Shown: positions 11,731-31,075 of the stretch, one piece after another | Position numbering within the stretch: position 1 is the first letter of the stretch | Layout of the letters: each line of letters opens with the position of its first letter | From: Sphingomonadaceae bacterium | Lineage (GTDB): Bacteria; Pseudomonadota; Alphaproteobacteria; Sphingomonadales; Sphingomonadaceae | Assembly (NCBI GenBank): GCA_021300355.1 | Contig: JAJTEF010000021.1 | Location: 1,826-61,818, forward strand | Direction: 5' to 3' | Length of the DNA: 59,993 nt | Notes under the pieces: generated by a model | What the model was told of the DNA's origin: nothing | Databases searched by the model: none | What the model saw: the letters and a program-made list of their open reading frames with translations, nothing else | Position numbers and translations under genes: made by a program

Positions 11731-12495
11731 TCAAAAGGCCAGCAGGACGATGGCGAATGCGGCAACGCCTAGAAAGCTTCCAAATGGAAGTGCATTGCGC
11801 TGATGCTTGGCGATTACATGCAGGCTGGAAACCACAGCTAGTCCGATGGCGCTCGCAATCAGCAACGTCATCGGCAGTGCCTGCCAACCCAACCAGATTC
11901 CCAAAGCACCAAAGAGTTTAGGATCGCCAGCACCCATGCCATCATGTTTCCTAAAGAATTTGTACGCCTGCCTAATAACTTCCAAGCTCAAAAAGCCTGC
12001 CAACATTCCTGTGGCCCTGTCTGTCCAGGCGATGTCGGGTGTAAGCATCGGGCCCACCAGAACACCCATGACCGCTAACAAAAGCACCAGTCGGTTTGGT
12101 AGCCAAAGGTGCTGATAATCCAGCACAATGAGCGGGAGTAATAGCCAGCCAAACACAGCAGCTGCGATGGCTTGCTCTGGCGGAAGCAACAGAACGGGCA
12201 CGGCACCGATTAAGGCTGCGATCAATTCGGTTGCCAAAGGCAGCGGTCCAATAGGCCCACGGCAATGTCTGCATTTGCCCTTTAACAATACGTACGATGC
12301 AATTGGAACTAGGTCATAGGCAGCAATCTGATGCCCGCAATTATCGCAGTGAGAGCGCCCCGTTGCCACACTTTTGCCAGTCGGCCACCGACTGCACATG
12401 GCGGCGACGAAGCTTCCCCAGATCGCGCCCACCGTCAGTTGTGATGCGAGCAAGAACCATAAAGGCAATCCCGCAACTAATGTGCTTAACTGCAA
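11731..12495 (-). CDS. gspO: Prepilin peptidase GspO (A24 family)
   Basis: A 254-residue integral membrane aspartic peptidase that cleaves and N-methylates the type II secretion pseudopilins. Two CxxC pairs (CDNC, CRHC) form the cytoplasmic zinc site. One catalytic Asp is in VLDYQHLWLP and the other in the GMGAGDPKLFGALG motif. It is the last gene of the 13-gene gsp operon, 11 bp after gspN. Putative substrates GspG, H, I, J and K are encoded upstream in the same operon. Confidence 0.93.
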   Translation of the reverse strand: MQLSTLVAGLPLWFLLASQLTVGAIWGSFVAAMCSRWPTGKSVATGRSHCDNCGHQIAAYDLVPIASYVLLKGKCRHCRGPIGPLPLATELIAALIGAVPVLLLPPEQAIAAAVFGWLLLPLIVLDYQHLWLPNRLVLLLAVMGVLVGPMLTPDIAWTDRATGMLAGFLSLEVIRQAYKFFRKHDGMGAGDPKLFGALGIWLGWQALPMTLLIASAIGLAVVSSLHVIAKHQRNALPFGSFLGVAAFAIVLLAF

Positions 12496-12506
12496 CAGAG
12501 CGCCGT

Positions 12507-13202
12507 TCAGAACCGGCCCTTTTGCAAAAGGCGATAGCCGCCCGCGACCAGACGGAAGCCGGCAAGCGTCAGCATCGTACCCTGCTCTACCGCCTCGGTT
12601 TCAAGCGTTACGGTCACCGTGTAGCTACCGTCCGCGGACAGCCGGATGTCGGCGCGTTCCATGGCCGATTGGCTGACCAAGGGCAGCAAAATCCCAGCAC
12701 CATCGCAGCGCGGTTGTCCAAGCATGCCATTTTGCAGGTTCAGCCCGGGCAAACTGTCCGACATGATCAGACGCACCTGGCCCCCTGCCTGCATGCACCG
12801 GCCCGCCGCGAATTTCGCGGAGAAGCCTTCAAACTGGATATTTTCAGCTGGAAAAGGCGCAAAAAGCGCAGCGACCGGAAGTGTTGCGTTCAGATTATTG
12901 ACGGACATGCCGCCAAAACCGCGCGACACTGTCCCTGTAAATCCGGGGCGATAGGGTGCATTGCCCCGCGACAATAGGATGTCAGCGCGGCCCAAAAACA
13001 GTGGCCCAACCAAAAGACGCGCATTCACATCGCCAATGGGCAATTTGCCAAGGCGCAAGTCACGGATAGACCCGTCCCAGATGATGCCGTCCACTTTGCG
13101 CGCCGACACGCCCTCACCGCCCACAATGGTCCGCAGCGGCATGAATAGGATCACCGAGAGCATCAGTAGCACGGCACTGGCGACAACCAGACGGCGGCTC
13201 AT
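12507..13202 (-). CDS. gspN: Type II secretion protein GspN
   Basis: 231 residues with one N-terminal membrane segment (about 5-22) and a periplasmic GspN domain rich in beta strands (GIIWDGSIRDLRLG, GRADILLSRG). GspN is an accessory component that is not present in every T2SS. Its start overlaps the gspM stop by 4 bp. Confidence 0.85.
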   Translation of the reverse strand: MSRRLVVASAVLLMLSVILFMPLRTIVGGEGVSARKVDGIIWDGSIRDLRLGKLPIGDVNARLLVGPLFLGRADILLSRGNAPYRPGFTGTVSRGFGGMSVNNLNATLPVAALFAPFPAENIQFEGFSAKFAAGRCMQAGGQVRLIMSDSLPGLNLQNGMLGQPRCDGAGILLPLVSQSAMERADIRLSADGSYTVTVTLETEAVEQGTMLTLAGFRLVAGGYRLLQKGRF

Positions 13203-13678
13203 GGCGCATCCTGTTGCAGCTGGGCATCGACGGTGACACTGCCATTGGTGCCTGTGCGCAATGTAAGGGCGCTGACGGTGACATTCTGGCTCTCAAGCTC
13301 CGTCAGCCATGCAAGCAACGCAGGCGCACGTGCCTGATCGATACGAAAGCGCATTTGGCCCGGCGCGGCATTGCCGGACGTGATGATGTCAAAGCCCTTT
13401 TCGCCCGCACTTTGTGTAATCAGCACATCGATATTGGCGGGAGCCGTTGTACGGGCAACGCGTGGCTTTGCCAGTGCGGCATCAACCGTGGCGACAATGC
13501 GCCCACGACGCTGCACCGCGGCGTCATGGTCAAGCTTTGCCTGCTCGACGGCGGATAACACCGGCATGATAATCCCAAAGACCAGCACCACAAAAGCGGT
13601 TAGGACGCCGGCTGAACCGACAAGCCATTGCTCACGCCGCGTCAGCGCAGCAAACCACACACGTGCTGCAGCGATCAT
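13199..13678 (-). CDS. gspM: Type II secretion protein GspM
   Basis: 159 residues with a short cytoplasmic start (FAALTRREQWLVG), a membrane segment at about 20-38 and a small periplasmic ferredoxin-like domain. It forms the inner-membrane platform with GspL, GspC and GspF. It overlaps both neighbours by 4 bp. Confidence 0.87.
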   Translation of the reverse strand: MIAAARVWFAALTRREQWLVGSAGVLTAFVVLVFGIIMPVLSAVEQAKLDHDAAVQRRGRIVATVDAALAKPRVARTTAPANIDVLITQSAGEKGFDIITSGNAAPGQMRFRIDQARAPALLAWLTELESQNVTVSALTLRTGTNGSVTVDAQLQQDAP

Positions 13679-14760
13679 GGCATCCTCATCGTAAGATCGA
13701 CCAGCGTCGCGCCCGTCGCGTCAGTACGCGGTGTGGCGGTGATGGGAAAACCATCCTGCTGTATGGCGAGTAACGTCTGGTTGATATTGTCGGAACTTGG
13801 CGCGGCCAAAACGACCGTCAGAACGCCATCTTGGCCAAAGCGCATGTCACGCACCGAAACATTGGGCGACGCTTTCACACTGCGCCACAACGCGGCCGAT
13901 AATGGCGAAAAGCGCCCTTGCATTATGCCTTGTTTGCGCATGGCAGCGGCGAGTTGCACCTCCGCCTGATCAATATCGGTAATCGCCGGATCAACCTTTT
14001 GCGCCGCGGCAAGCGCGATGCTGTTTTCGTTGCTGGTTGCGCTCCAATATTTCCCAAGCGTCACAAACATGGTCAGCGCGCTAATCACAACAAGCGCGAT
14101 GCACAGGCGCTTAATCCATGTCAGCTGTTCTGCCGTTGCCCAGATGGACCGCACTTTCTTGACAAACATGCCTTCGCGCAAATTTAGCAGCGGTTGCTGG
14201 CTCGCTGTCCAAAGCATTGTCCGCACTGTGTCCGCGTCCAAAGTCTCAACGGCGGTCTCGCCTGCAAAGATGCTGCGGAAAACAGGCTCATCGGGCATCG
14301 CAAATTGCGCGCTGCGAAGGACGTTCGTACCTTCAAACGCGGCTGTGACGACCACGTCCGTCGGTGGATCAATTGCAAGACCAAAGGGCAACACAATGTC
14401 CGGATTCACGCCGTGTGCTGCTAACCGGTCCAGCCCATATTGCATGACTTCGGGCGCGATTGTGGCTGTGACATAATCATCGCCAACATGCTGCGCCGCG
14501 CTGGCGTGCACCAGTCCAAGCGATTGTTCGGCGGCGCGAAGCTTGGCCACGCCTTCTGCTTGGCGCGCCTCCAACCCTTGCAGCGAAAACCAACTGCAAC
14601 GCACATCAGCAGGCGACACCACAGCCATGACGGTTTCGTCATCCGCCGAAGGCATAAATTCGGACAATAAACCGGCATGTTGCCACACGCCGTCTGTCAC
14701 GCGGAACAGTGCGGGATCATCGACGTCGGACGACGGGAAGCGCAGGATAACGACGGTCAT
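13675..14760 (-). CDS. gspL: Type II secretion protein GspL
   Basis: Start ATG at 14758-14760 was chosen because it overlaps the gspK stop in the ATGA pattern used throughout the operon (361 residues). The N-terminal two thirds are the cytoplasmic actin-like domain that binds GspE. A membrane segment near residues 225-245 (RLCIALVVISALTMF) leads to a periplasmic domain that pairs with GspM. Confidence 0.87.
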   Translation of the reverse strand: MTVVILRFPSSDVDDPALFRVTDGVWQHAGLLSEFMPSADDETVMAVVSPADVRCSWFSLQGLEARQAEGVAKLRAAEQSLGLVHASAAQHVGDDYVTATIAPEVMQYGLDRLAAHGVNPDIVLPFGLAIDPPTDVVVTAAFEGTNVLRSAQFAMPDEPVFRSIFAGETAVETLDADTVRTMLWTASQQPLLNLREGMFVKKVRSIWATAEQLTWIKRLCIALVVISALTMFVTLGKYWSATSNENSIALAAAQKVDPAITDIDQAEVQLAAAMRKQGIMQGRFSPLSAALWRSVKASPNVSVRDMRFGQDGVLTVVLAAPSSDNINQTLLAIQQDGFPITATPRTDATGATLVDLTMRMP

Positions 14761-15740
14761 TCCTCTTCCCCCCAACTGCGCCAAATGACGCGCGCAGGCG
14801 CAGGCGAAGCGACGATCATCGATTCACCAGCGAGCGCCAGTTCCCCAAGCGATACCCGTGTATCCAGCAAGAAATAATTGCTCGTCAGTTTGACCTGCCC
14901 TTGAACCAGAGGTGCCGGTTCCAGCGCTGCCAGTTCGGGGGCAGCCCAGAATCGAATGAGGCTGCCATAGCCACTCGATGGCCGCTTGGCGAGATAGCTC
15001 CGTGCGGTCGCGATATTCAATTTGCCTGGCGGGAAAAGCATCACCAACAATGGCGCCTGTTCGGGCAACAAGGTATTGACGTTCAACGGCGACAATATGG
15101 TTTCGGGCAGAACGCAAATCCAGTTCTGCAGCTTGCTATAAATGGCGGGGCTCACGCCTTTTACCGCACGCAGTTCGCTTGGATGGGCAAACGGCCGATT
15201 GGCAACCATATAAGGCACTGGCGCGGCGCGGTACGCATCATCCTCTGCGCCATTGGGCAACGGGGTAATATCGCTATCAGCCCAATCTGCTGCTGCAGCT
15301 GCGATTGCGCGGGCGGCATTCTCATCGGTACCAAGAACCACCAACAACGACGTCAACTGATCCTGACCCGCCGTGCTGGCCTGATATCGTTCCTCCAACT
15401 TAGTCACCAAGCTGTTAAGGTTAAAACAATTTCCGGCATCACGCACTGTCGCCGTTGCCGTACCGATGGGAATAGGCAGGCTTTGTGGAGCCCCCAGCCA
15501 GCCGCCTGCCAAAGTGGTTTGCGCGGCATCGCGTGCAACCAAGTCCTCAATCCGCGCCGCCGCAATGGACTCAGCGGCGTAGGTAAACATCCGCGCCTGC
15601 GCCAAAGCATTACCATTGGTGGACAATTTGCTCGACAGGGTCAGCCGGTCCAGCGTCGTCGCGGCAATGACCGCAAGCACAGCGACCATCAGCAATACCG
15701 ACAGCAATGCCGCGCCGCGTTCAGATGACTTGGGCAACAT
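14757..15740 (-). CDS. gspK: Type II secretion minor pseudopilin GspK
   Basis: The ATG at 15738-15740 gives 327 residues that begin with a short leader, then RGAALLSVLLMVAVLAV, a pseudopilin hydrophobic helix lacking the usual Glu5, as is normal for GspK. A large periplasmic domain follows, including two helix-hairpin-like segments (LRAVKGVSPAIYSKL). GspK caps the pseudopilus with GspI and GspJ. It overlaps gspJ at its start. Confidence 0.9.
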   Translation of the reverse strand: MLPKSSERGAALLSVLLMVAVLAVIAATTLDRLTLSSKLSTNGNALAQARMFTYAAESIAAARIEDLVARDAAQTTLAGGWLGAPQSLPIPIGTATATVRDAGNCFNLNSLVTKLEERYQASTAGQDQLTSLLVVLGTDENAARAIAAAAADWADSDITPLPNGAEDDAYRAAPVPYMVANRPFAHPSELRAVKGVSPAIYSKLQNWICVLPETILSPLNVNTLLPEQAPLLVMLFPPGKLNIATARSYLAKRPSSGYGSLIRFWAAPELAALEPAPLVQGQVKLTSNYFLLDTRVSLGELALAGESMIVASPAPARVIWRSWGEEE

Positions 15741-16387
15741 CAGCCAGCCGCCCCTTCTTCTGCACTCGGTGTTGGCAAGATGCGTGTCTGCGGCCCCACA
15801 AGGAACAACATGCGCTGTTCCGGCTTGCCCTTGACGGTAACCGTCAGGGCGATGGCCCGTGGTAAGGCGTTCGCATCGGTTGCGGTCCAATCGCCCCGCC
15901 ATTGCCCTTTATCGTCGCGATATTCGGCGGTCGCTGTCACAACATCCTCAAGCATCGTTGCCGCGTCAGCAGGCGCAGCACCGTCAAGCATGGGCCAACT
16001 CACACGTTTCAACGCACCGTTCTCAAGCACATAGGTCACGCGCTGCAGGCCCGCGCGTGGCGCAGCATCGAAATTGGACCAGCCCCCCCGCACCAGCCCA
16101 AATATTCCTCCGGGCACAGTGGCATCGCCTTGGGTAAAGGCGGGCACGGGCTGTCCGGATTGGTCACGCACCGGCCGCGCGATGGCTTGCGCAAGGTCTG
16201 CCTCCAGCGCGTTGGTCAGCCTTTGTGAAAGGGCCATTTCGCCCAGACGCTTTTTAACGGCAATCTGCGTGTCTGTGCCTGACCGCAGAAGCGTAACGCC
16301 CGCAACCGAAATGAGCGCAAAAATGGCCAGCGCCACAAGCAGCTCAATCAGCGTAAATCCTGCCTCCGATTGCCGTCCCGCATTCAT
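15740..16387 (-). CDS. gspJ: Type II secretion minor pseudopilin GspJ
   Basis: 215 residues. Prepilin cleavage motif AGFTLIELLVALAIF with cleavage after Gly at about residue 10, then a globular domain. It forms the pseudopilus tip complex with GspH, GspI and GspK. ATGA overlap with gspI and one-base contact with gspK. Confidence 0.9.
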   Translation of the reverse strand: MNAGRQSEAGFTLIELLVALAIFALISVAGVTLLRSGTDTQIAVKKRLGEMALSQRLTNALEADLAQAIARPVRDQSGQPVPAFTQGDATVPGGIFGLVRGGWSNFDAAPRAGLQRVTYVLENGALKRVSWPMLDGAAPADAATMLEDVVTATAEYRDDKGQWRGDWTATDANALPRAIALTVTVKGKPEQRMLFLVGPQTRILPTPSAEEGAAG

Positions 16388-16767
16388 TGTTCAACCGGCC
16401 TTGCGATCGTTAAACGCGCCTTACGCAAGGCCGCATTGCCGGTGCCGACAACGTCGATGTCGACCATCACGAGGCGCGTATCGTCGGTCGGGCTGGCGGT
16501 TGCTGTCCAGCGCCAATTCTGGCCGCCATTCATTTCTTCGCCGCGTGTTTCGCCCAAGGTTGGCGGCGCGGGATTTGACAGGATTTCGACCGCCACATTG
16601 CGCGCCACTTGCCATGCCATGCTGCTGTCGCCCAAATTGGACGTGGAGCGCACCGAATATCCCTGCAGGCGGACCATCGCCAGTGCAGCAAGGCTGAAAA
16701 TCGCCAGCGCAACCATGATCTCCAGCAATGTGAAGCCATTTTGTGTTGGTTGTGAATTACCGGACAA
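16384..16767 (-). CDS. gspI: Type II secretion minor pseudopilin GspI
   Basis: I place the start at TTG 16765-16767, giving a 10-residue leader before the prepilin motif NGFTLLEIMVALAIF and about 127 residues. An ATG at 16797 would give a longer leader and a 41-bp overlap with gspH. The family is clear from the prepilin motif and gene order. GspI nucleates the pseudopilus tip. Confidence 0.88.
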   Translation of the reverse strand: MSGNSQPTQNGFTLLEIMVALAIFSLAALAMVRLQGYSVRSTSNLGDSSMAWQVARNVAVEILSNPAPPTLGETRGEEMNGGQNWRWTATASPTDDTRLVMVDIDVVGTGNAALRKARLTIARPVEQ

Positions 16768-17203
16768 TGCGCACGTCCCCGGTCGCGGCCAGCGCAAGTG
16801 TTACGGTTACCGCATCATGCTTTAGCGTAATATTGGCCGCGCTTGATGGCATACCCGTACTGTCAAAGGCGATGCGCATTTGCCGCGCACCAGCCATGTG
16901 CACAGAGGTGCCACTTTTCCAATCCGTTGCCGTAAAGGGCGCCTCGGACAATGGTTGCCACGCACCAGCAGTGCGTGCCTCAAAACCATAGCCAGACGGG
17001 CGCACGGTTACTGCCATGCTGCGCGACTGCAATATGGCGTGATCGCGCAAGGCAGCAACACGCGCGGCAAATTGCTCCGCCTCGTCGCGTGCACCGCGAT
17101 CGGTTGACTGCACCGTCATGACGACCGCTGCACTCGCAACGCCGATGATGAAGATAACCACCATCAGTTCCACCAAAGTGAAACCGCGTTCATCGGCTTT
17201 CAT
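16757..17203 (-). CDS. gspH: Type II secretion minor pseudopilin GspH
   Basis: ATG at 17201-17203 gives 148 residues with a six-residue leader before RGFTLVELMVVIFIIG, the usual short prepilin leader; the frame is open far upstream but that part is not pseudopilin-like. A globular C-terminal beta domain follows. It lies about 19 bp after gspG. Confidence 0.89.
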   Translation of the reverse strand: MKADERGFTLVELMVVIFIIGVASAAVVMTVQSTDRGARDEAEQFAARVAALRDHAILQSRSMAVTVRPSGYGFEARTAGAWQPLSEAPFTATDWKSGTSVHMAGARQMRIAFDSTGMPSSAANITLKHDAVTVTLALAATGDVRIVR

Positions 17204-17222
17204 ATGCGGATGGATTGACGGC

Positions 17223-17699
17223 TTAGTCGCCGTAAATATCGGCATTTTCATTCTCGCCACCCGGCGCGCCATCGGCACCAAGCGAGTAGATGTCAAAAGC
17301 GCCGGTCTTGCCCGGCGTTGTATATTGGTACGGGCGGTTCCACGGATCCGACGGCAGTTTTTTGATATAACCCACGCTGCGCACGCCTGCAGCGACAGGC
17401 GGCGTGACCAAAGCCTGCAATCCGGCACCGGCATCTGGATAGGTCAGATTATCCAAACGATATGTCTCAAGCGCTTGTCCCAAGACAGCAATGTCAGCCT
17501 TTGCCTTTTGCACCATCGCCTTGTCTTGATTGGGCAAGACATTGAGGGCGACGATGGTCGTCAGCAGCGCGAGAATGAACAAGGTCACCATCATTTCGAC
17601 CAAAGTGAAGCCATTAGGCTGTGCCGCCGCAGCCTTGCGGCTAAATTTCGCCGACGGACGGCTTGTGTCAGTGAAAAGATTAAAAATGATGCGGAGCAT
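17223..17699 (-). CDS. gspG: Type II secretion major pseudopilin GspG
   Basis: 158 residues with a leader of about 29 residues, prepilin motif NGFTLVEMMVTLFILAL, and the conserved GspG body: LETYRLDNLTYPDAGAGL, YIKKLPSDPWNRPYQY and the C-terminal calcium-site region DIYSLGADGAPGGENENAD. It polymerises into the pseudopilus shaft. Confidence 0.94.
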   Translation of the reverse strand: MLRIIFNLFTDTSRPSAKFSRKAAAAQPNGFTLVEMMVTLFILALLTTIVALNVLPNQDKAMVQKAKADIAVLGQALETYRLDNLTYPDAGAGLQALVTPPVAAGVRSVGYIKKLPSDPWNRPYQYTTPGKTGAFDIYSLGADGAPGGENENADIYGD

Positions 17700-17701: not shown

Positions 17702-18919
17702 CTAAAGTCCCGTGAGGTTTTGGAGTTGAAGTATAGGCAGCAAAATTGCCAAAATGATGACAGCAACGACACCGCCCATCGCGACGATGATGAGTGGTTC
17801 GAGCAGCGACAAAGCGGTGCTGGTGAAATTATCAAATTCGCGCTCAAGATATTCCGCCGCGCGTTCGAGCATTATATCCAACTGCCCGGCGCTCTCGCCG
17901 CTTGCGGTCAAATATACCAGCAGCGGTGGGAAAACCCCGCTTGTGCGCATCGCGCCCGAAAGACTGCCCCCGCTCCGCACCGATTCCACGATATCGTCAT
18001 TGGCGGCGGAGAGCACTTTATTGCGAATGGTGCCACCGGTCAGGCGCAGGCCCTCCAGCAACGGCAAGCGGCTGGCGACCATCGTTGCCAACGTCCGTGC
18101 CATGCGCGCAGCGTGCAGGTTGCGCAGCAGCTTCCCAAGCAAAGGAATGTGCAGCACGGTGCGGTCAACCGACAGGCGGAACGCTGGCCGCTTAAGCGCT
18201 TGCGCAAACAGCAAGCCACCAAGGACAACAGCGATAATAAGCACCCAATAATAATTCGCCAAAAACGCCGATATGCCAATGACGATGCGCGTAATCAGCG
18301 GCAGTTGCTGGTCGACATTGTCAAACTGTTCGACAACACGCGGGACCACCGAGACCATGAGGCCCATCACCACCAAAAGCGCGACCAGTGACAAAATCGC
18401 AGGGTACGCCAGCGCACCAATCAACTTGCCGCGCATCTCCGCCTGCCGTTCGAGCAATACCGCAAGACGCTCCGTAATAAGCGGCAATGTGCCCGCCCCC
18501 TCGCCCGCGGCAATCATCGCGCGGTATAATGGCGGGAAGCTGTTGCCTTCACGGCGCATGGCTTCGGATAGGCGCTGTCCCTCGACCACGCCTGCATGCA
18601 CTTCCGTCAGTATCTGCCGGACATGTGGCTGCTCGCTCTGGCGGCTGATCGTCCGCAACGCTTCCTCCAACGGGGAAACTTGCGCCAATGAGGACAATTG
18701 CCGGGTAAACAAAGTCAGCTGCTTGGCATTCAAACGCGGCTGCCGCTTAATCGGCAGGCTGGCGAGTAAAGACGCGCGCGCGGGTGCGGGCGCGACGCTC
18801 ACAATATAGAGATTCTTGGATGTCAGGCGATCACGCGCGGCATCATCATTGGCCGCCGCTATCCGCCCGCGCTGTTCACGGCCATCCGGATCAATCGCAT
18901 GATATGCGAATTCAGGCAT
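17702..18919 (-). CDS. gspF: Type II secretion inner-membrane protein GspF
   Basis: 405 residues with two repeated GspF/TadC-type cytoplasmic domains (about 70-190 and 275-395) and three membrane helices (near 170-195, 220-245 and 375-400). Motifs LPLLEGL and FPPLLVYLTASGESAG are typical. It is the platform protein contacting GspE and GspL. It overlaps gspE by 8 bp. Confidence 0.93.
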   Translation of the reverse strand: MPEFAYHAIDPDGREQRGRIAAANDDAARDRLTSKNLYIVSVAPAPARASLLASLPIKRQPRLNAKQLTLFTRQLSSLAQVSPLEEALRTISRQSEQPHVRQILTEVHAGVVEGQRLSEAMRREGNSFPPLYRAMIAAGEGAGTLPLITERLAVLLERQAEMRGKLIGALAYPAILSLVALLVVMGLMVSVVPRVVEQFDNVDQQLPLITRIVIGISAFLANYYWVLIIAVVLGGLLFAQALKRPAFRLSVDRTVLHIPLLGKLLRNLHAARMARTLATMVASRLPLLEGLRLTGGTIRNKVLSAANDDIVESVRSGGSLSGAMRTSGVFPPLLVYLTASGESAGQLDIMLERAAEYLEREFDNFTSTALSLLEPLIIVAMGGVVAVIILAILLPILQLQNLTGL

Positions 18920-22654: not shown

Positions 22655-23444
22655 TGTTGTTCCAGATTTAGAGCAATGGGGACCTTTGCGCCGCCGCGTT
22701 CAACTTCAACGCTTAAGCGGGCTCCGGGCCTGATTTGAGAAGCAATGTCAGCCGCCGAGGATACCGGACGGCCGTTTATGCCAACGACAATGTCGCCAGC
22801 CTGAAATCCGGCGAGGCGCAACATCGTGCCATCATCGCGGGCTTGCAGAACGAGACCGGTGACCCTGCCGATTTCTGAAGCGTGTCTGCGTTCAGGCCGA
22901 CGCCTCCGCCGGACGTCGTTGGCGTGGTTACAGCCGAACCTGATGCTGGCGGGCTAACCGTTTCCGCAGGCACCGACTGATCAAGATACAGCGATTCTTT
23001 GACGCCGCCGCGCGACAAAATGACATGGTCGAAGGCAACGGAATCCAAAGTGACGCCGGGCGCGACTTCTTCGCCAATGGCAAAACTGTTCTGCACGCCA
23101 TCTTCACCAGCGATGATAGCCGAACCGCCGCCCGAGCTTTCATTGGTGCGCACGCCGAACAATGTCAGGCTTAACGATGTGACATTCTGGGTGGAATCTG
23201 CAGCCGCGTCATTGCGAAAAAACGGGTCAAATCCGGCAAATAACGCCATGCGGGCAGGCTGCGGCACCACATTAACCGACGGCGCGCGCCAGTCATTGAC
23301 CGGGCCAACGGGGGTTATCAATATCCAGAAAAGACGTGCGGTTTGGACGGCGGTCAATATGGCCAGAACGCCCAGGATCAGGCGACCCGCGGGCACAGAA
23401 CTGAATCGGTGCGACTGCGCTTTCACCCTTTCCGCCAATGTCAT
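22651..23444 (-). pseudogene. gspC: Type II secretion protein GspC, frameshifted before the PDZ domain
   Basis: Start ATG 23442-23444 is preceded by a strong GGGGGGAA site; an upstream ATG at 23483 has none and would probably lie before the transcript start. The protein has a membrane segment and a homology region (DPFFRN, LTLFGVRTN). Around 22871-22878 the frame is lost and runs out of frame to a stop near 22776. In the adjacent frame the expected PDZ domain continues (LRLAGFQAGDIVVGINGRPV, then PGARLSVEVERGG) to a TGA at 22651-22653 that overlaps the gspD GTG. One missing base, for example one G, explains it. With that base the protein is about 264 residues, a normal GspC. Confidence 0.88.
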
Positions 23445-23499
23445 GCCACTGATTCCCCCCGGACGAATCCGCTTGAAGAACATGCGTTAAGGCGCGGCT

Positions 23500-23539
23500 G
23501 TGACTGTTGGATGAATTATAAATGACAGTTTAATGACTG
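23500..23539 (-). promoter_or_regulatory. Pho-box array upstream of the gsp operon
   Basis: On the minus strand four 7-bp half-sites follow each other with 4-bp spacers: CAGTCAT (23533-23539), CTGTCAT (23522-23528), AATTCAT (23511-23517), CAGTCAC (23500-23506). The PhoB consensus is CTGTCAT-N4-CTGTCAT, so the first pair matches 13 of 14 positions. The array ends 55 bp before the preferred gspC start. A TATAAT hexamer (23515-23520) lies inside the array. Confidence 0.75.
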
Positions 23540-23623: not shown

Positions 23624-26320
23624 TTAGAAATTCAGCTCTACGCCAATCGAGGCGCTGATGCCTTGTTTGTAACGGTTATAGAAAATCTTGTTCTCGCCAT
23701 TTTCCTGCAACTCCTGATATTTGGTGTTGGTCAGGTTGCGGACTTCGAACTTCAATTCAGCTTCTTTGCCGCCAAGCGTAAATCCTTCACGCGCAACGAA
23801 ATCAAGCTGAATGCCAGGCTTTTCCTTGATATCCGGCTGACCCGATGCACCACGGCTGGTAACCCGGTCGGTCGAATAGCTGAGCAAAATCGTCTGCTGC
23901 GAAAGGCGCTCGGTATCTTCGAGACCGAATTGCAAGTTGATCAGATGATCCGCTTGGCCGGTCAACGGCGAACCGTCGGTGAAGAAGTCGAGCGCGTTGG
24001 TCGACGATGCGTTAAACACCGCAACCGTGTCACCCGCCTTCACACTGATTTTTGACTTGGTGTAGGTGTAGTTGGCAATGACAACCGCACGGCGTGTCGC
24101 AAAAAAGCCTTCGTCGCCAATCGCAGAAAGATCGAAATATTTCTGCGTTTCGATTTCTACCCCGTGCAAATCAGCCTTCGGTGCGTTCGCGAAGCTGGTG
24201 ATGACAGAGTTATCATCAAAGCTTGAGAACGACTCGATAGGGCTGTCGATACGCTTGAAAAAGCCGGCAATCGTGAAACGTTGCTCACGGTCGAAATACC
24301 ATTCATAGCGCGCTTCAGCATTGTACAACTGGCTGTCCGTCAACAGCGGGTTACCGCGGAAAAGACGGTTGGAGTCGGTATCGTAGAAGTTCTGGAAAAT
24401 CAGTTCGCGGAATTGCGGACGCGCGATGGTTTTCGACGCGCTCACCCGGAACTTCATCTGTTCATTCATGTCCCACGTCAGCGTCGCTGCGGGCAACCAA
24501 TAGCTCCGATCCAAGCTGGTGGAGGCGAGCGAGGCTGTTGGCGTCGTGAACACCTGAACCGGCACAACGGTCTGTTCAGCGGTTTCGTAACGCACGCCAA
24601 GGTTCAGGCTGATTGCTGGGGTAATGAACGCCTGAATTTGGCCGTACCCAGCGTGGTTCAACAAGCTTGCATCAAAGACCGGGTTTGCTTCGTTGGTATC
24701 GATCAACGCGATGTTGTAAAAATCGATAATGTCCGGTTGCAGCAAAAAGTCTGGACGGAATAATGACGGCGCGATGGGCGTGCCGCCGGGTGCGACAAAT
24801 TGGAAGTCACGACGTTCGGTGCGGCGAACCGTGTCCGAATAGGCATAACCTATCGTCGCGGTTATTTCCGGCGTGACCTTTGCCGACAGATCCAAACCAC
24901 CGGCCCACAGATTTTCATTCAGATAGGAATAGCTGACTTCAGCGCTTCCTTGTTGACCGTTGTTAAGACGGTTGATGAACAATTGGCCATAAGGATCGGA
25001 CGTGATGTTGCTGCGGTAATATTCTAGGCTGATTTCATCCGGCGCCTCGCGCTGAGAATTGGCGTAGGCTGCGCGGAAGCTCAAATTCACGTCGGGTGAC
25101 AATTTGAACTCACCAACCAGCTGGCTATCCACCAACTGACGTTCGAGCCATGCTGTATCCTGCTGCATCAATGTCGCGGTGGGCGATGTTGTCTGACGGG
25201 TACCGACACCGAGACGCGCTTGTTTCAGCGTGTCGCGAATGAACAGATTGGTCCAACGGATTTTTTGTTCGCCCACTTCGATACCGAAGCCAAGCAGGCC
25301 GTTCACAACCATGCGGTTGTCGGTAATGACTTTCTGGAAATCCAGCTCTTTCTGGTTCAGGTCGAGCGTCGATGCCGTTTGTTGGATCGTGTCGCGGGTA
25401 CGCCATTTGTTGCTGTAACCGGCGTTGAAGATGACCCCCATAGTGGCGTCATCGCCAATTTCGAAGTTCGTCCCACCGGTAATCGTACCTGAGCCATTAG
25501 GCGGCAGTTTCTTGTCACGCTGAACAACAGCATTCCGGCCGGTGATGAGCTCGCTGGCAATAGCCTGCGTATCGACGGTGCCGGCGCTGATGCGTGCGCC
25601 GCTGGCAAGATAGGATGCAAGCGCGGGTTTTAGGTCACGGTTGCCATTGTCGAAACCACTCCAATCCTGCGAGCTACCATAATATGTGTAGCCCAGTTGA
25701 TTGGTGGTCTCGCTATTGACGCTCAAGTCGCCGCCGACCGTCAGGAATGTTTCGCGCGGTATCGCTTTGGTGGTCAGGTTGATAACGCCGCCGCCAAATT
25801 CACCGGGGAAGTTTGCCGAATAGGTTTTTTGCACAAGCGAAGATGCAATCACGCTTGTGGGGAAAAGATCGAGCGGAACAACGCGCTTCAATGGCTCAGG
25901 GCTTGGAAGCGGCGAACCGTTAAGCAATGCGAGCGAATAACGATCACCAAGGCCACGAACATAGACAAAACCGCCGCCAACGACGCTTAGGCCAGTGACA
26001 CGCGATAGTGCGCCGGCAATGTCGCCTTCACCGGTACGTTCAATATCCGCGCTCGACAGCACGGAAACAACTTGCGCCGCGTTCTTGGAAATGTTGCGAT
26101 CCAGATATCCGCGTACGACGATTTCTTCGCCACCCGGAATAGAGACATCGACATCCTCTTCGACTGGCTCGGCTGCGTCTGCTGGCGTGTCTGCTGGTGC
26201 TGCTTCAGCACTGGCTTGTTCGGCCTGTTCCGCTGCGGCGTCTTGCGCCATCAACATGGAAGGCGAAACGAGCGCCGACGTCAAAAGCAACAGTCTGATT
26301 GCCCCTACTGGCTTCAACAT
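23624..26320 (-). CDS. TonB-dependent outer-membrane receptor
   Basis: 898 residues with a signal peptide (cleavage near MLMAQDA), an acidic Ala/Glu linker, a plug domain (about 65-190 with EEIVVRGYLDR, a TonB-box-like segment, and NGSPLPSPEP) and a 22-strand-type barrel ending in GVELNF with a terminal Phe. The substrate is unknown. It lies between an ElpS-like lipoprotein gene and the gsp operon, the same order I recall for the phosphate-starvation locus of Caulobacter crescentus (elpS, TonB receptor, gsp genes). Uptake of a phosphorus source is therefore a reasonable inference but not shown by the sequence. Confidence 0.92.
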   Translation of the reverse strand: MLKPVGAIRLLLLTSALVSPSMLMAQDAAAEQAEQASAEAAPADTPADAAEPVEEDVDVSIPGGEEIVVRGYLDRNISKNAAQVVSVLSSADIERTGEGDIAGALSRVTGLSVVGGGFVYVRGLGDRYSLALLNGSPLPSPEPLKRVVPLDLFPTSVIASSLVQKTYSANFPGEFGGGVINLTTKAIPRETFLTVGGDLSVNSETTNQLGYTYYGSSQDWSGFDNGNRDLKPALASYLASGARISAGTVDTQAIASELITGRNAVVQRDKKLPPNGSGTITGGTNFEIGDDATMGVIFNAGYSNKWRTRDTIQQTASTLDLNQKELDFQKVITDNRMVVNGLLGFGIEVGEQKIRWTNLFIRDTLKQARLGVGTRQTTSPTATLMQQDTAWLERQLVDSQLVGEFKLSPDVNLSFRAAYANSQREAPDEISLEYYRSNITSDPYGQLFINRLNNGQQGSAEVSYSYLNENLWAGGLDLSAKVTPEITATIGYAYSDTVRRTERRDFQFVAPGGTPIAPSLFRPDFLLQPDIIDFYNIALIDTNEANPVFDASLLNHAGYGQIQAFITPAISLNLGVRYETAEQTVVPVQVFTTPTASLASTSLDRSYWLPAATLTWDMNEQMKFRVSASKTIARPQFRELIFQNFYDTDSNRLFRGNPLLTDSQLYNAEARYEWYFDREQRFTIAGFFKRIDSPIESFSSFDDNSVITSFANAPKADLHGVEIETQKYFDLSAIGDEGFFATRRAVVIANYTYTKSKISVKAGDTVAVFNASSTNALDFFTDGSPLTGQADHLINLQFGLEDTERLSQQTILLSYSTDRVTSRGASGQPDIKEKPGIQLDFVAREGFTLGGKEAELKFEVRNLTNTKYQELQENGENKIFYNRYKQGISASIGVELNF

Positions 26321-26343
26321 TGTAATTCCCTTTTATAAATTCG

Positions 26344-26385: not shown

Positions 26386-26403
26386 GATATTATCCGCCAG
26401 CTA

Positions 26404-27975
26404 TCAGTATGTTGGCAGTGAGGTGCAGAGACCGGTTACGCTGGTGCCCAGATTGGCCGTCGAGCTGTTGCAGGTCCAGCCTGCGTACCAAGTGTCGTTG
26501 GCGTCACGGACAGCACCGATATAGGTTGTTGCATCAAAGTAAGATGCGATGCTGCTGGCGTTGAACGCTGTAACTGCGTTTTCGGTGGCACCATTGATGA
26601 ACAATGACGTCAAGCTTGGTGTGAACGCGCTGTTATTGTTGGTCGCTCCCGAACCGAACACCGCGCTTACTTGCGCCTCTGTTACACCGTTCGAACCAAC
26701 AAACGCTGGCGATCCACACTGCATAACAACCGAACGGAATACTGGCGCACCAGCTTCGTCAATGCTTGCATCTGCTGTTGCCGATACGGTTTGTGCACGG
26801 CTGATCCGCAGGCATGATGTCGATGGGCTGACAACCACACCGTTAAACATGCTGTAGTCGGTACCACCACGCAGCAACATTGCCGACAGGTTACTAGTAT
26901 TGTTGCGCTGAATGAAGGTGAAGTTCGACAGACGTGTGTTCTGGCGCGGCGTATTGCCGTCCGTAGCGTTATCCGAGTCAGCTTCGATCATCGAGTCACC
27001 CGCATTTGGACGCTGCACTGCCAATACATATTGGAAGTTCGCTTTAACACCGGTATCCGTATCCAAGTTATCGTCATCCGCACCAATCGACACGAAATAC
27101 TTCATGTTGACGTTACCGCCGAAGAATTCTGCGCCATCGTCAGAGCTGTTGAACGACTGGATGTTGTTCAGAATAGTACCGGTGCCGGTGCCGCCCGTGG
27201 TCAGCGATTGCAGTTCGGAGTTACCCGAGAGAACAAAGCCCGAGTAGCGGATTTGGACAAAGCTCAAACGGCCGCTGTTATCGGCGGTGTTCGCGCCACC
27301 ATAAAGTGCCGGGTCAACTGCGCCTTCAACCTGACGCTCGCAAGCAACAGTGCCTGGAGTTGCAGCAGGTGCTGCGCAATCAGTGATGGGTGCGCGACCG
27401 TTAAGAACGATACCGCCCCACTGACCAATCGAGCTGTCGTTGTTGAGACCGAGGACGTTGTCACGGCTGGTGAAGATGATTGGGAGGGCAGCCGTACCAA
27501 CAGCGTTGATGCGGTTACCGCGGTTAACGTTCAACCATGACACGCCGGTTCCACCAAAGACGATAACGCCTGGTTCGATGTTCAGCGTGACGACATTGTT
27601 AGTCGATGAAGGACCTTGGTCCGTACCAACGTCAACACGGCCACCAAGACGATACAGAACGCCCGCAATCTTTGGCAATGTGCTGGTGGTGTTGACGCGC
27701 GCTGGCAATGTGCAGACGCGATATGTGCCGGTTGGACCAGTGATCGTACCACTGTCGGTCAAGCCTTGCGCATCAGCGATGGTTGGGCAGCCGCCAGCAG
27801 GTGTAACTGTCGCAGGTGGCGGTGGTGGCGGTGGTGGCGGCGGAGGTGCAGCCGGATTGTTGATGGTGATGTTACCACCAGTGCCTGGTGACGCGATATC
27901 ATCTGCGCCACAGCCGGTGACGAGGGCAGCAGCTGCCGTCGCATACACGATCCCACGCAATTTTGGGTTTAACAT
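26404..27975 (-). CDS. ElpS-like extracellular lipoprotein, predicted type II secretion substrate
   Basis: ATG at 27973-27975 gives 523 residues starting with a lipoprotein signal ending LVTGC (lipid-modified Cys22). Next come a flexible segment and eleven consecutive prolines (about 44-54). The large remainder is a Gly/Asn/Thr-rich predicted beta-helix (IGQWGGIVLNGRAPI, DDGAEFFGGNVNMKYF, several Cys). The family and its position beside a TonB receptor and the gsp operon match, as I recall it, Caulobacter ElpS, a T2SS-exported lipoprotein induced by phosphate starvation that stimulates alkaline phosphatase activity. Pho half-sites lie 155-195 bp upstream. A longer start at 28023 lacks a signal sequence at its N-terminus. 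Confidence 0.75.
   Translation of the reverse strand: MLNPKLRGIVYATAAAALVTGCGADDIASPGTGGNITINNPAAPPPPPPPPPPPATVTPAGGCPTIADAQGLTDSGTITGPTGTYRVCTLPARVNTTSTLPKIAGVLYRLGGRVDVGTDQGPSSTNNVVTLNIEPGVIVFGGTGVSWLNVNRGNRINAVGTAALPIIFTSRDNVLGLNNDSSIGQWGGIVLNGRAPITDCAAPAATPGTVACERQVEGAVDPALYGGANTADNSGRLSFVQIRYSGFVLSGNSELQSLTTGGTGTGTILNNIQSFNSSDDGAEFFGGNVNMKYFVSIGADDDNLDTDTGVKANFQYVLAVQRPNAGDSMIEADSDNATDGNTPRQNTRLSNFTFIQRNNTSNLSAMLLRGGTDYSMFNGVVVSPSTSCLRISRAQTVSATADASIDEAGAPVFRSVVMQCGSPAFVGSNGVTEAQVSAVFGSGATNNNSAFTPSLTSLFINGATENAVTAFNASSIASYFDATTYIGAVRDANDTWYAGWTCNSSTANLGTSVTGLCTSLPTY
27815..27847 (-). repeat. Polyproline-encoding GGT/GGC tract in the lipoprotein gene
   Basis: On the plus strand this is an imperfect GGTGGC repeat, which encodes eleven consecutive prolines on the minus strand, just after the lipobox. 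It is a likely spacer between membrane anchor and folded domain and a potential slippage site. Confidence 0.8.
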
Positions 27976-28130: not shown

Positions 28131-28170
28131 GCGTCAGATATGTGACAGCGGCAGAACAGGCGGGTCACAG
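28131..28170 (-). promoter_or_regulatory. Pho-box array upstream of the ElpS-like lipoprotein
   Basis: On the minus strand four half-sites sit at exact 11-bp intervals: CTGTGAC (28164-28170), CTGTTCT (28153-28159), CTGTCAC (28142-28148), CTGACGC (28131-28137). The central pair is the best match to the PhoB consensus. A separate plus-strand look-alike, CTGTGAC-ATGG-CTGTGCT, lies at 28085-28102. The leader to the lipoprotein ATG would be over 100 nt. Confidence 0.65.
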
Positions 28171-28186
28171 CAAAATTATGCGCTAG

Positions 28187-28220
28187 AAAAAACGAAAGGC
28201 GAGCCGTTAGGCCCGCCTTT
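28187..28220 (-). terminator. Terminator after the small TPR protein gene
   Basis: AAAGGCG-A-GCC (28195-28205) pairs with GGC-C-CGCCTTT (28210-28220) around GTTA with one mismatch. Six T follow on the minus strand after CG (complement of 28187-28192). It separates this gene from the Pho-box array and the lipoprotein gene. Confidence 0.8.
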
Positions 28221-28262
28221 TATAAAGCGTTAGACGTGAGATGTTAGCTCAGTACATTTGGA

Positions 28263-28643
28263 TCAGCGTGTCGCAATACGCATCTGCAAACCGGCATAGG
28301 CCTTACGCGCAGCGTCTTTTGAATTCATCACACGACCGTCGGCGAGCACCAGATCGACGGTATCACGGCTCTGCATCGCAGCGGCGAACATATTCGAAGC
28401 CTCTTCCATACGGCCCATACGCGCATAGGCACGGCCAAGGTTGAGCAGCTTCGCAGGATCATGCCGGCTCACTTGCGCGCTTGTCAGTATTTGAGAAACT
28501 GCCCGTTCATTGTCGCCCTTTACGAGAGCCTCATAGCCAATGGACCCCTTTGGGTATGCTGTTTCAATATTCATGGTCGGTTGGGCGTGAGCTGCAGCGC
28601 CCATCAAGCCACTTACCAAGGCGCCTGTTAGTAGCAGTTTCAT
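28263..28643 (-). CDS. Small exported TPR-repeat protein
   Basis: 126 residues: a signal peptide to AAAHA (about residue 20), then about two TPR-like helix pairs (GYEALVKGDNERAVSQI and LLNLGRAYARMGRMEEASNMFAAAM). Function is unknown; periplasmic protein-protein interaction is the usual role of such repeats. A good AAGGAGAAAA ribosome-binding site precedes the ATG. It lies upstream of the lipoprotein on the same strand but has its own terminator, so co-regulation is not shown. Confidence 0.75.
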   Translation of the reverse strand: MKLLLTGALVSGLMGAAAHAQPTMNIETAYPKGSIGYEALVKGDNERAVSQILTSAQVSRHDPAKLLNLGRAYARMGRMEEASNMFAAAMQSRDTVDLVLADGRVMNSKDAARKAYAGLQMRIATR

Positions 28644-28864
28644 CGGTTTTCTCCTTATCCCTGATGCGAATATTACACTTATATGACATCACTGCAATAT
28701 ATTTGTAATATAATTGTCATTTTTTCCATGGGACGAAAACTGCGCTTCAAATTCGGTAATATTTCAGACACATAACTTCTATCAAAGTCGCTCAAGAACC
28801 GCATCAAAGTGCCACCACCCTTCCCTAGTTGGGCGCTACAAACCTATGCAGGGAAGGTACCAAA
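28644..28864. other. A/T-rich divergent intergenic region
   Basis: This spacer lies between the TPR gene and a possible small plus-strand gene at 28865. It is distinctly A/T-rich around 28665-28730, with palindromic TA-rich stretches that could hold the TPR gene promoter. I see no clean Pho box here. Confidence 0.4.
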
Positions 28865-29046
28865 ATGCGTAAAATTACTATGATGCTTTTAGCCGGAGTC
28901 GCTTTCGGATCTGTGCCAGTTCGCGTCTAGCAGCAAAGGCATGCACGGATATTCCCCATAGTCCAATGATGCGCTCCATCGCACCAACGCTTGCAAAAGC
29001 CATGGGTGCGCTTCTACCTGACGCAGAGATGCCTGCGGTCCGATAA
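28865..29046 (+). pseudogene. Possible small exported protein, frameshifted
   Basis: ATG 28865 follows a GGGAAGG site and starts a convincing signal peptide (MRKITMMLLAGVAFGS), but the frame stops at a TAG near 28928. In the frame reached by restoring one base near 28912 the sequence continues through SSRLAAKACTDIPHS and KAMGALLPDAEMPAV to a TAA at 29044-29046, giving about 60 residues. I recognise no family. The split matches the single-base losses seen elsewhere in the window. It could also be a decayed gene or coincidence. Confidence 0.4.
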
Positions 29047-29077
29047 TGACAATTGGCAATTCTTAATGGCAAAAAAA

Positions 29078-29095
29078 CTGTCATTGATCTGCCAC
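29078..29095 (+). promoter_or_regulatory. Pho box upstream of plcP-agt
   Basis: CTGTCAT (29078-29084), four bases, CTGCCAC (29089-29095). The first half-site is a perfect match to the PhoB consensus and the second has two mismatches. It ends 55 bp before the preferred start codon at 29151, which leaves room for a -10 and a leader. Confidence 0.75.
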
Positions 29096-29150
29096 GCACA
29101 TGACTCATCCGTCGTTTAGGGCTTCATTAAGACAACGGGGGATGGGCAAT

Positions 29151-30029
29151 ATGACAACCACTGAATTAAGCGACAGCCTGCTTTTTAAAAGCGATGGAAA
29201 AGGTCCAAAACTGCCGGCATGGTTCGATAAGCCCGAACCCAAAAGCTACCAACCAAAGATGCGGTTTCGCACGGTGTGGATTTCTGATGTGCATTTGGGG
29301 ACAGCAGGGTGCCAGGCGGGACTGCTGAGCGATTTTCTGCATTCCATCGAATGTGAGACGCTTTATCTGGTCGGCGACATTGTCGATGGCTGGCGGTTAC
29401 GCAAGGGTTGGTATTGGCCCGACCAGCACAATGAAGTCATTCGACGGGTTTTGAAAATGGCGCATCGCGGGACCCGCGTCGTCTATATTCCCGGCAACCA
29501 TGACGAAATGTTCCGCGATTATGCGGGCCTTAGCTTTGGCGGCGTTGAGGTTCAGTTGGAGGCGATCCACCAGACCGCCGACGGCCGCGCATTACTCGTT
29601 ACGCACGGCGATGCCTTTGACGGCATCGTGCTATATGCCCGCTGGCTCGCTTTTTTGGGTGACCAAGCGTATACGCTGCTGTTGAAAGCCAACGTCGTTC
29701 TCAACGCGGTGCGCCGCAGGTTGAACATGCCGTATTGGTCGCTTTCATCCTATCTTAAAATGCGCGTCAAAAACGCAGTGCAGTTTATCGGGCAATATGA
29801 AGAAGTGGTCGCGCGCGAGGCCGCGCTTCGCGGTGTTCAAGGCGTTGTGTGCGGTCACATCCATTCTGCCGAAATCCGGCAGTTTGGATCTATTACCTAT
29901 TATAATGACGGCGACTGGGTCGAAAGCTGCACCGCGTTGACCGAGGCGAAGGACGGATCCATGGCGATTATCGATTGGGCTGCGCATGTCCGTAAAGCTG
30001 CTGAAAAGCGGGCTTCGATCGCGGCGTGA
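29151..30029 (+). CDS. plcP: Calcineurin-like metallophosphoesterase, PlcP-type phospholipase C candidate
   Basis: Start ATG 29151 is preceded by a GGGGG site; upstream ATGs at 29142 and 29100 are poorer and 29100 is too close to the Pho box. The 292-residue protein has the metallophosphoesterase motifs SDVHLG, GDIVDGW, PGNHDE, THGDAFD and GHIH, as in LpxH/COG2908 proteins. In alphaproteobacteria such a gene paired with a glycosyltransferase is PlcP, which removes phospholipid headgroups during phosphate starvation. Context and the Pho box favour this over lipid A synthesis (LpxH), which would be unregulated by phosphate. Confidence 0.82.
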   Translation: MTTTELSDSLLFKSDGKGPKLPAWFDKPEPKSYQPKMRFRTVWISDVHLGTAGCQAGLLSDFLHSIECETLYLVGDIVDGWRLRKGWYWPDQHNEVIRRVLKMAHRGTRVVYIPGNHDEMFRDYAGLSFGGVEVQLEAIHQTADGRALLVTHGDAFDGIVLYARWLAFLGDQAYTLLLKANVVLNAVRRRLNMPYWSLSSYLKMRVKNAVQFIGQYEEVVAREAALRGVQGVVCGHIHSAEIRQFGSITYYNDGDWVESCTALTEAKDGSMAIIDWAAHVRKAAEKRASIAA

Positions 30030-31075
30030 GGATCGCCATCGCAACGGACGCTTGGCTGCCGCAAGTCAATGGCGTTGTCCGGACGATGACCGAAACGGTC
30101 AACCGGCTGAAATCGCGCGGACATACCGTCGAAGTGATCGCGCCGGACAGGTTCACCACCATTCCCTGCCCCGGCTATGCGGAAATCCGCCTTGCGCTGG
30201 CACCCCGCTTTGGCGTGCGCAAGGCTTTACACGCCATGGCTCCGGACATTGTCCATATCGCGACCGAAGGCCCAATTGGTTGGAGCGCACGGGCATGGTG
30301 CCTTGCGCATGATGTGCCCTTTACCTCGGCATTTCATACCCGCTTTCCGGATTATCTTGCCGTGCGAACGGGGCTATCCGCTGAGTGGTTTTGGCCAATC
30401 ATGCGGATGTTCCATAAGCCATCTCGTGCCGTCCTGACCGCGACAAAGGGTTTGATGGATGAGCTTTCAGTGCGGGGCATCCCCAATACGCGCCTGTGGT
30501 CACGCGGCATCGACCATGGCCTTTTTCATGGAGATCAGCCAGACCATCCCCGGTTGGCAAACCTACCCAAACCCATCATGATTTCCGTGGGCCGTGTTTC
30601 CGTGGAGAAAAATCTGGAAGCCTTTCTATCTGCGGACGTCGCAGGCAGTAAGGTCGTGATCGGCGACGGCCCTGCTTTGTCTGAATTAAGAATAAAATAT
30701 CCCAATGCCATTTTCCTGAGAACGCTCAAGGGAACTGAACTGGCAAGCGCCTATGCCACCGCAGACGTTTTTGTATTTCCCAGTCGAACCGATACATTTG
30801 GGTTGGTGATGATCGAAGCGTTGGCATCTGGACTTCCGGTCGCTGCATTTCCCGTCGCTGGTCCTTTGGATATTATCGGTCCGGATGGCCGCGGTCCCTG
30901 GTCCGAATTGCCACGACCGATCGGATCTTTAAGCGACGACCTGTCCTCTGCCATTCGGAACGCGCTTAGTGTGCGCAAAGCCGACGCTGCAGCATATGCG
31001 CAGAGTTTCGATTGGGATCGATGCACCGACCAGTTCATTGGCGCATTGGGTGAAGTCACTAATCAAAATGCCTGA
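30026..31075 (+). CDS. Glycosyltransferase family 4, Agt-type diacylglycerol glucosyltransferase candidate
   Basis: 349 residues from a GTG that overlaps the plcP stop (GTGA), so translation is coupled. It has a GT-B fold with an N-terminal TDAWLPQVNGVVRT acceptor loop and a C-terminal donor site VFVFPSRTDTFGLVMIEALASGLPVAA, including the retaining-GT E-x7-E-like pattern. Next to PlcP, the known role of such enzymes is to glycosylate diacylglycerol into glucosyl or glucuronosyl lipids that replace phospholipids. The sugar cannot be read from the sequence. Confidence 0.82.
   Translation: MRIAIATDAWLPQVNGVVRTMTETVNRLKSRGHTVEVIAPDRFTTIPCPGYAEIRLALAPRFGVRKALHAMAPDIVHIATEGPIGWSARAWCLAHDVPFTSAFHTRFPDYLAVRTGLSAEWFWPIMRMFHKPSRAVLTATKGLMDELSVRGIPNTRLWSRGIDHGLFHGDQPDHPRLANLPKPIMISVGRVSVEKNLEAFLSADVAGSKVVIGDGPALSELRIKYPNAIFLRTLKGTELASAYATADVFVFPSRTDTFGLVMIEALASGLPVAAFPVAGPLDIIGPDGRGPWSELPRPIGSLSDDLSSAIRNALSVRKADAAAYAQSFDWDRCTDQFIGALGEVTNQNA

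Follow-up and report, generated by a model that had tools for sequence, protein, structure and literature searches.

Does a locus that sets a type II secretion system (T2SS), an ElpS-like lipoprotein, a TonB receptor and a PlcP-Agt lipid-remodelling pair side by side constitute a single response to phosphate starvation, or is its gene order an accident? The locus lies in a stretch of 59,993 nucleotides (nt), hereafter the window, from the Sphingomonadaceae bacterium assembly GCA_021300355.1 (contig JAJTEF010000021.1, forward-strand positions 1,826 to 61,818), in which the T2SS genes, the TonB receptor, an ElpS orthologue, a gene for a small tetratricopeptide-repeat (TPR) protein and plcP-agt together occupy 19.3 kb (window positions 11731-31075). 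The host assembly measures 2.18 Mb and is 99.7% complete, and its genus would be Sphingorhabdus or one very close to it. Gene content, gene order, a conserved architecture of binding sites and a deletion were observed; we conclude that the locus, which belongs to a Sphingorhabdus-like alphaproteobacterium of fresh water, is very probably a phosphate-starvation island under PhoB control.

Gene content and order of the locus

Genes were called with Pfam at curated cut-offs, and NCBIfam/TIGR models served as the second library. The genes, in window coordinates, are:

11731..12495, minus strand, gspO prepilin peptidase (Pfam A24_N_bact and Peptidase_A24)
12507..13202, minus strand, gspN (Pfam T2SSN)
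13199..13678, minus strand, gspM (Pfam T2SSM)
13675..14784, minus strand, gspL, divergent (Pfam GspL_C and TIGR01709, both below cut-off; operon position)
14757..15902, minus strand, gspK (Pfam T2SSK)
15740..16387, minus strand, gspJ (Pfam T2SSJ)
16384..16797, minus strand, gspI (Pfam T2SSI)
16757..17434, minus strand, gspH (Pfam GspH, N_methyl)
17223..17699, minus strand, gspG major pseudopilin (Pfam T2SSG)
17702..18919, minus strand, gspF (Pfam T2SSF)
18912..20468, minus strand, gspE ATPase (Pfam T2SSE)
20465..22654, minus strand, gspD secretin (Pfam Secretin)
22776..23483, minus strand, gspC, first gene of the gsp operon (Pfam T2SSC)
23624..26320, minus strand, TonB-dependent receptor, CC0171-like (Pfam Plug and barrel pass; no Pho box of its own)
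26404..27975, minus strand, ElpS orthologue, predicted surface lipoprotein (lipobox LVTGC; 60% identity to C. vibrioides; 20-member family alignment)
28263..28643, minus strand, small TPR-repeat protein (weak Pfam TPR, below cut-off; signal peptide by eye)
29100..30029, plus strand, plcP-like metallophosphoesterase (Pfam Metallophos)
30026..31075, plus strand, agt-like GT4 glycosyltransferase (Pfam Glyco_transf_4 and Glycos_transf_1)

Transcription on the minus strand runs from the TPR gene through elpS and the TonB receptor to gspC and on to gspO, whereas plcP-agt is divergent on the plus strand. The core set from gspC to gspO is complete within a single operon; 12 of the 13 genes pass the curated Pfam cut-off, and GspL, which scores 24.6 bits against a GspL_C cut-off of 29.6 and 54.9 against 65 bits with TIGR01709 (E 7.7e-15), is in order. 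The gspH open reading frame (ORF) carries its N_methyl motif at residue 81, and its start probably lies too far upstream.

The lipobox protein is the ElpS orthologue, because over query residues 7-522 it shares 60% identity with a protein of Caulobacter vibrioides whose gene (locus L249) is followed by a TonB receptor and then by gspC-E. No family match to it was found in Pfam or NCBIfam, and comparison with solved structures returned one chance-level match (E 0.41). Across the genus, the TPR gene is the neighbour of elpS. The original prediction, made from the DNA letters and a list of ORFs, had described a complete gsp operon, an adjoining TonB receptor, an ElpS-like lipobox protein and a metallophosphoesterase-glycosyltransferase pair; each of these was borne out, the third by its lipobox, near full-length homology and the conserved elpS-TonB receptor-gsp order.

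Predicted Pho boxes precede the gsp operon, the TPR gene and plcP

The regulatory features of the locus are:

23511..23539, minus strand, Pho box of the gsp operon (CAGTCAT, CTGTCAT and a weaker AATTCAT at 11-nt spacing; top matrix site of the window)
28131..28170, minus strand, four degenerate Pho-like half-sites in an array upstream of elpS (periodicity by eye)
28187..28220, minus strand, terminator-like hairpin and T run 3' of the TPR gene (sequence; fold of 28170-28260, z -2.72)
28672..28689, minus strand, Pho box of the TPR gene (second-ranked 2-unit matrix site)
28692..28720, plus strand, Pho box of a deleted TonB receptor 2-phosphodiesterase unit, orphan here (matrix)
28865..29046, plus strand, deletion scar, 5' end of TonB receptor 2 fused to 3' end of the phosphodiesterase (blastn against relatives L067 and L068)
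29078..29095, plus strand, Pho box of plcP-agt (CTGTCATN4CTGCCAC, 2 mismatches)

With at most three mismatches allowed, the consensus CTGTCATN4CTGTCAT matches the genome 133 times and the reversed pattern 59 times; three of the consensus matches have a single mismatch, the gspC box among them. Within the window, eight matches were found where 3.86 were expected, and 2 of 100 shuffles scored as high; the consensus scan by itself was too weak and was therefore replaced by a half-site matrix of seven columns, trained solely on 30 pstS upstream regions of the genus, most of which contain three or four half-sites at 11-nt spacing. Thirty shuffled windows provided the control for significance, and reversed sequence the control for conservation.

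With two units, the gspC box scored highest in the window (19.5), followed by the TPR box (19.4) and by a box on the plus strand at 28703, before the scar (18.9). With three units, the gspC box scored 23.4 (21.6 in an overlapping register) and the scar box 23.2, against 15.45 for the best of the 30 shuffles. Set beside the tandem 11-nt half-sites of the genus pstS promoters, the gspC, TPR and scar boxes are strong matches and the plcP box a moderate one; elpS and the adjacent TonB receptor present no such match.

Conservation was followed in two sets of sequences, a site being counted at a matrix score of 12 or more; matches starting past query residue 60, those with less than 150 nt upstream and those with identical upstream sequence were left out. 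In the upstream regions of the genus, such a site stands before gspC in 26 of 27 (reversed control 0), before the TPR gene in 29 of 29, before TonB receptor 2 in 14 of 18 (reversed 0), before plcP in 23 of 35 (reversed 1) and before elpS in 7 of 31 (reversed 1). It was found before gspE once in 27 regions, and not before the adjacent receptor (0/28), agt (0/36), gspD (0/27) or NPP (0/20). The second set was obtained by scanning named genomes with the alignment of 20 ElpS family members, and consists of the best 80 of 568 confirmed relatives; these loci overlap with the genus genomes, so that the two sets are not independent. Here the counts were 25/39 for gspC, 42/74 for elpS, 19/33 for the TPR gene, 13/17 for plcP and 10/14 for TonB receptor 2, with reversed controls of 0, 1, 2, 0 and 0, respectively; upstream of the adjacent receptor the count was 0/75.

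To judge from these counts, elpS would be a Pho-box gene in many loci, its box having decayed in the window's lineage, where that of the adjacent TPR gene is strong. A Pho box of elpS in the window itself is not claimed: four half-sites can be discerned by eye, but the best matrix score is 5.8. Read-through into elpS from the TPR promoter is disfavoured, because the terminator-like hairpin separates the two genes.

Several results weigh against phosphate control of the whole locus. With two units the best shuffled window reached 19.77, above the window's own best, and a lone 2-unit site is no proof; the TPR and plcP boxes, whose 3-unit scores (13.8 and 8.8) fall below the best shuffle, therefore rest on conservation. 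The plcP box is only the sixth-ranked 2-unit site of the window (13.3), and outside the window's clade none of the 12 remaining upstream regions in the genus has a plcP site of 12 or more. The reversed-sequence control for the TPR gene was 4/29, the elpS upstream region in the window is not above chance, the region upstream of a phoR-like gene scores -2.8, and in C. vibrioides this matrix gives 8.0 for gspC and 3.1 for elpS. In the window's clade, the plcP box stands at its own place in 23 of 23 genomes.

The original prediction, which took the T2SS and lipid remodelling to be co-regulated through Pho-box-like sites, is thus upheld in part: adjacency and conserved predicted boxes speak for it, the half-site spacing being kept in relatives before gspC and the TPR gene and, more weakly and within the window's clade, before plcP, whereas elpS and the adjacent receptor have a weak site and none, respectively.

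Layouts of the island in the genus and family

Among 45 genomes of the genus, 36 carry PlcP and 35 have an ElpS match, weak and partial in G021 and G022 (G and L numbers denote genomes and loci). In 17 of the 36, the window's among them, plcP-agt lies beside the elpS end (layout A), and in four (G001, G007, G009, G034) beside gspO in convergent orientation (layout B). One genome, G044, is rearranged, with elpS about 14 kb from plcP; a contig end interrupts the locus in five; five are unlinked (G003, G004, G006, G020, G030, S. contaminans among them); and in four (G011, G018, G019, G024) elpS is absent or the genes are on different contigs.

A PlcP-Agt tree was built from 64 of 68 rows (four loci from genomes already present were removed, and L136 was excluded beforehand) and rooted at the midpoint. 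The window's clade (support 100/100) comprises the 17 genomes of layout A, the five with a cut locus and the rearranged one. Layout B and layout C, the latter from a second genus, are each supported at 100/100, and Novosphingobium-like loci group with G308 at 99/88; the sister of the window's clade, joined at 89/86, consists of four unlinked and three undetermined rows. A single origin for layouts B and C is conceivable (92/89, midpoint root). Both several joinings and one old linkage with losses are possible.

In the named loci, plcP lies within the examined flank in 17 of 80, including Novosphingobium marinum, in which elpS and the receptor stand beside plcP-agt and no gspC, D, E or O match was found in the stretch examined. 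In G308 (L187), a TonB receptor-elpS pair of lower identity (51%, 47%) lies about 7 kb from plcP, near plcP-agt, in a genome with two ElpS matches; no gsp match was found in the stretch examined. In two gammaproteobacterial metagenome assemblies (L253, L264), where contamination is possible, a pstS-like gene (47-49% identity) stands some 7 kb away from elpS and its TonB receptor.

A receptor and a phosphodiesterase are missing from the window

The gap between the TPR gene and plcP measures 0.46 kb in the window; in nine relatives (L067-L069, L072, L075, L076, L078, L082, L084) the same gap is filled by a second TonB receptor (TonB receptor 2, about 740 residues) together with a phosphodiesterase of 444 residues, assigned in L068 to the Pfam families TonB barrel and Phosphodiest. 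Both genes occur additionally in L070, and at contig ends in L073, L079 and L081; the relatives that carry them before plcP include Sphingorhabdus rigui. The scar has its junction at about 28921 and retains the receptor's first codons and the last part of the phosphodiesterase; the window's genome has deleted both genes and left behind this scar and the receptor's Pho box. In this comparison some proposed ORF ends (L108, L174) were wrong and were left unused. In L083 the phosphodiesterase is kept and the receptor reduced to a 61-residue remnant, and seven genomes of the clade are without both genes (the window's and, by gap length, L074, L077, L080, L085, L086 and L087). Two parts of the island are dispensable, since the window's own genome lost them. 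The original prediction, in drawing the extent of the island, had overlooked this deletion as well as the receptor and phosphodiesterase of relatives.

Receptor 2 and the phosphodiesterase also precede plcP in three of the four layout B genomes, at the gspO end, and the block of receptor 2, phosphodiesterase, plcP and agt is found at either end of the elpS-gsp unit, in different clades; at L096, L097 and L098 it stands as a block at the gspO end. L120, L121 and L123, which are unlinked, have receptor 2 and the phosphodiesterase next to the TPR gene without plcP, and in L183, from the second genus, the gap carries a TonB receptor and a PhoD-type phosphatase. The phosphodiesterase or PhoD and the receptors are of the types expected for phosphate harvest, and would be the best candidates for T2SS cargo and for uptake.

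Could the adjacency nevertheless be accidental or inherited, without functional meaning, around ordinary Pho-regulon promoters? Such an explanation is compatible with the regulatory part of our interpretation. In the wider family, positions were compared for 150 of 222 PlcP genomes and 149 of 215 ElpS genomes, 69 genomes being common to both; in just eight of these, which represent two genera, are the genes no more than 20 kb apart (G308 is extra to them), while 23 carry them on one contig at a greater distance and 38 on separate contigs, where contig cuts are possible. Five genus genomes, S. contaminans included, are unlinked, and four of these fall into the group that is sister to the window's clade in the PlcP-Agt tree. 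These counts tell against a selected island; on the other hand, plcP-agt adjoins elpS-TonB-gsp at one end or the other, the joining occurs in other genera too and takes at least four layouts, and the genes that lie in between are themselves of phosphate-scavenging types. The joining thus recurs in several layouts, yet is uncommon in the family, and we hold an adjacency without meaning to be a serious possibility, though not the favoured one.

The plcP-agt pair

The plcP and agt ORFs overlap at 30026-30029, agt being directly downstream. The first ATG of plcP falls inside the third Pho half-site, and in 30 of the 36 genus genomes the alignment of the best PlcP match starts later than residue 1. 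Translation therefore probably begins at 29142 or 29151, which leaves the Pho box free; with either start the box would lie at about -64 or -73, as in pstS.

The pair might instead serve envelope glycolipid or lipid A metabolism rather than phosphate-saving remodelling. A search of plasmid records for a characterised PlcP found relatives, none of them characterised, and most of the 15 listed are annotated as UDP-2,3-diacylglucosamine diphosphatase; the plcP box, moreover, falls short of the gspC and TPR boxes in strength and is not seen at this strength outside the window's clade. However, the PlcP-like protein is unlikely to be LpxH, because it scores only 28.1 and 33.6 bits with LpxH models whose cut-offs are 190.35 and 134, and because LpxB has no match in the genome; the layout of the pair also agrees with published remodelling loci (PMC4796936). 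We therefore consider a role in lipid A or envelope glycolipids improbable.

No match to PlcP was found among solved structures. In a 3.5-Mb Sinorhizobium record the query matched at a single place, unannotated there, with 48% identity over 94% of the query. On a Sphingomonas parapaucimobilis plasmid (L330), an annotated TonB receptor immediately precedes a plcP-agt-like pair.

Pho-like boxes elsewhere in the genome

The PhoR-like kinase, pstS, phoU and phoB of the window's genome lie together on contig 47. The matrix gave 17.4 for pstS, which belongs to the training set, 14.2 for a phosphate-selective porin and 11.2, under the threshold of 12, for a PhoA-type phosphatase. A box scoring 20.3 (contig 60, 12643-12660) precedes the gene of a further TonB receptor, which is a candidate for the uptake of phosphate esters. 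On contig 4 (16034-16051), a box scoring 19.4 lies 60 nt upstream of a gene for UDP-glucose dehydrogenase, an enzyme that would supply UDP-glucuronate for the glycolipid GADG. PhoB control of this dehydrogenase as a general partner of GADG was rejected: a site of 12 or more occurs in just 6 of 29 genus regions, all from close relatives (30 loci were taken and one region was too short).

A proposed mechanism

By analogy with relatives, induction, secretion, enzyme activities and receptor substrates may be pictured as follows. At low phosphate, PhoR-PhoB, whose genes lie with pst in another part of the genome, would occupy the tandem 11-nt half-sites, and PhoB would raise separate transcripts: one for the gsp operon, one for the TPR gene and one for plcP-agt, with a further one for TonB receptor 2-phosphodiesterase in relatives. 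The T2SS would then release phosphate-harvesting proteins and, as in Caulobacter, bring about the release of ElpS, and TonB receptors would take up the products of harvest. PlcP would cut the headgroups off phospholipids and Agt would glycosylate the remaining diacylglycerol, so that phosphate is saved. That the T2SS and ElpS should be general nutrient or constitutive systems, with phosphate control confined to plcP-agt, is highly improbable, given that the window's strongest conserved box stands before gspC and that the Caulobacter T2SS is in the PhoB regulon according to PMC11208175.

We suggest, tentatively, that sphingomonads have repeatedly built a modular phosphate-crisis island, in which outer harvest (as candidates, the T2SS, ElpS, TonB receptors and either PhoD or a secreted phosphodiesterase) was selected to stay together with inner saving by PlcP-Agt, with the PhoB-controlled TPR protein as a further member. 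In the island, two phosphate responses that have been described separately, secretion-based harvest and phospholipid replacement, would be physically united, so that both can be deleted or measured in one piece; the island is available in a cultured type strain, for example Sphingorhabdus rigui DSM 29050. It also supplies candidates for phosphate-regulated T2SS cargo, the phosphodiesterase and PhoD, together with a conserved small TPR protein.

Comparison with known systems

Phosphate limitation has been tied to a T2SS before, as is proposed here: Hxc, the second T2SS of Pseudomonas aeruginosa, is phosphate-regulated. Its gene context is different, and we know of no adjacency to ElpS or plcP-agt.

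A close counterpart of the present locus is the Caulobacter cluster, in which elpS, cc0171 and gsp follow one another in the same order as here and ElpS is 60% identical; the same order has been shown for Sphingomonas alaskensis (PMC2996285). In Caulobacter, gspO runs opposite to the operon, whereas here it runs with it; the cluster here also has the TPR gene and plcP-agt as neighbours and a strong gspC box, and relatives add receptor 2 and the phosphodiesterase. The original prediction had taken ElpS for a T2SS-exported, phosphate-induced lipoprotein. It is made on phosphate starvation, cc0171 being constitutive, but the T2SS acts in its release, for which the abstract suggests a secreted protease (PMC2996285). 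The PhoB regulon of Caulobacter, as given in a 2024 paper, takes in the T2SS, TonB receptors and phospholipid-degrading enzymes (PMC11208175).

The plcP-agt operons of Erythrobacter sp. NAP1, Pelagibacter and Methylosinus likewise consist of a metallophosphoesterase followed by a GT4 glycosyltransferase (PMC4796936, PMC9239053). In Erythrobacter sp. NAP1, agt lies downstream of plcP and MGDG and GADG appear on phosphorus limitation, and Pho boxes have been reported in plcP clusters (PMC4796936); plcP-agt is also present in Methylosinus (PMC9239053). The accessible text of these two papers mentions no T2SS or elpS neighbour, whereas here both adjoin. Among open-licence papers, none was found that joins the T2SS/elpS cluster to plcP-agt, so that the claim of a combined island undescribed in sphingomonads holds for the combination and lapses for the elpS-TonB-gsp order, which had been published, Sphingomonas alaskensis included. 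Known parts account for most of the island, which is real and conserved: the elpS-TonB-gsp order had been described before, as had the control of the Caulobacter T2SS by PhoB and plcP-agt pairs with Pho boxes, and what is new is their joining in an expandable island.

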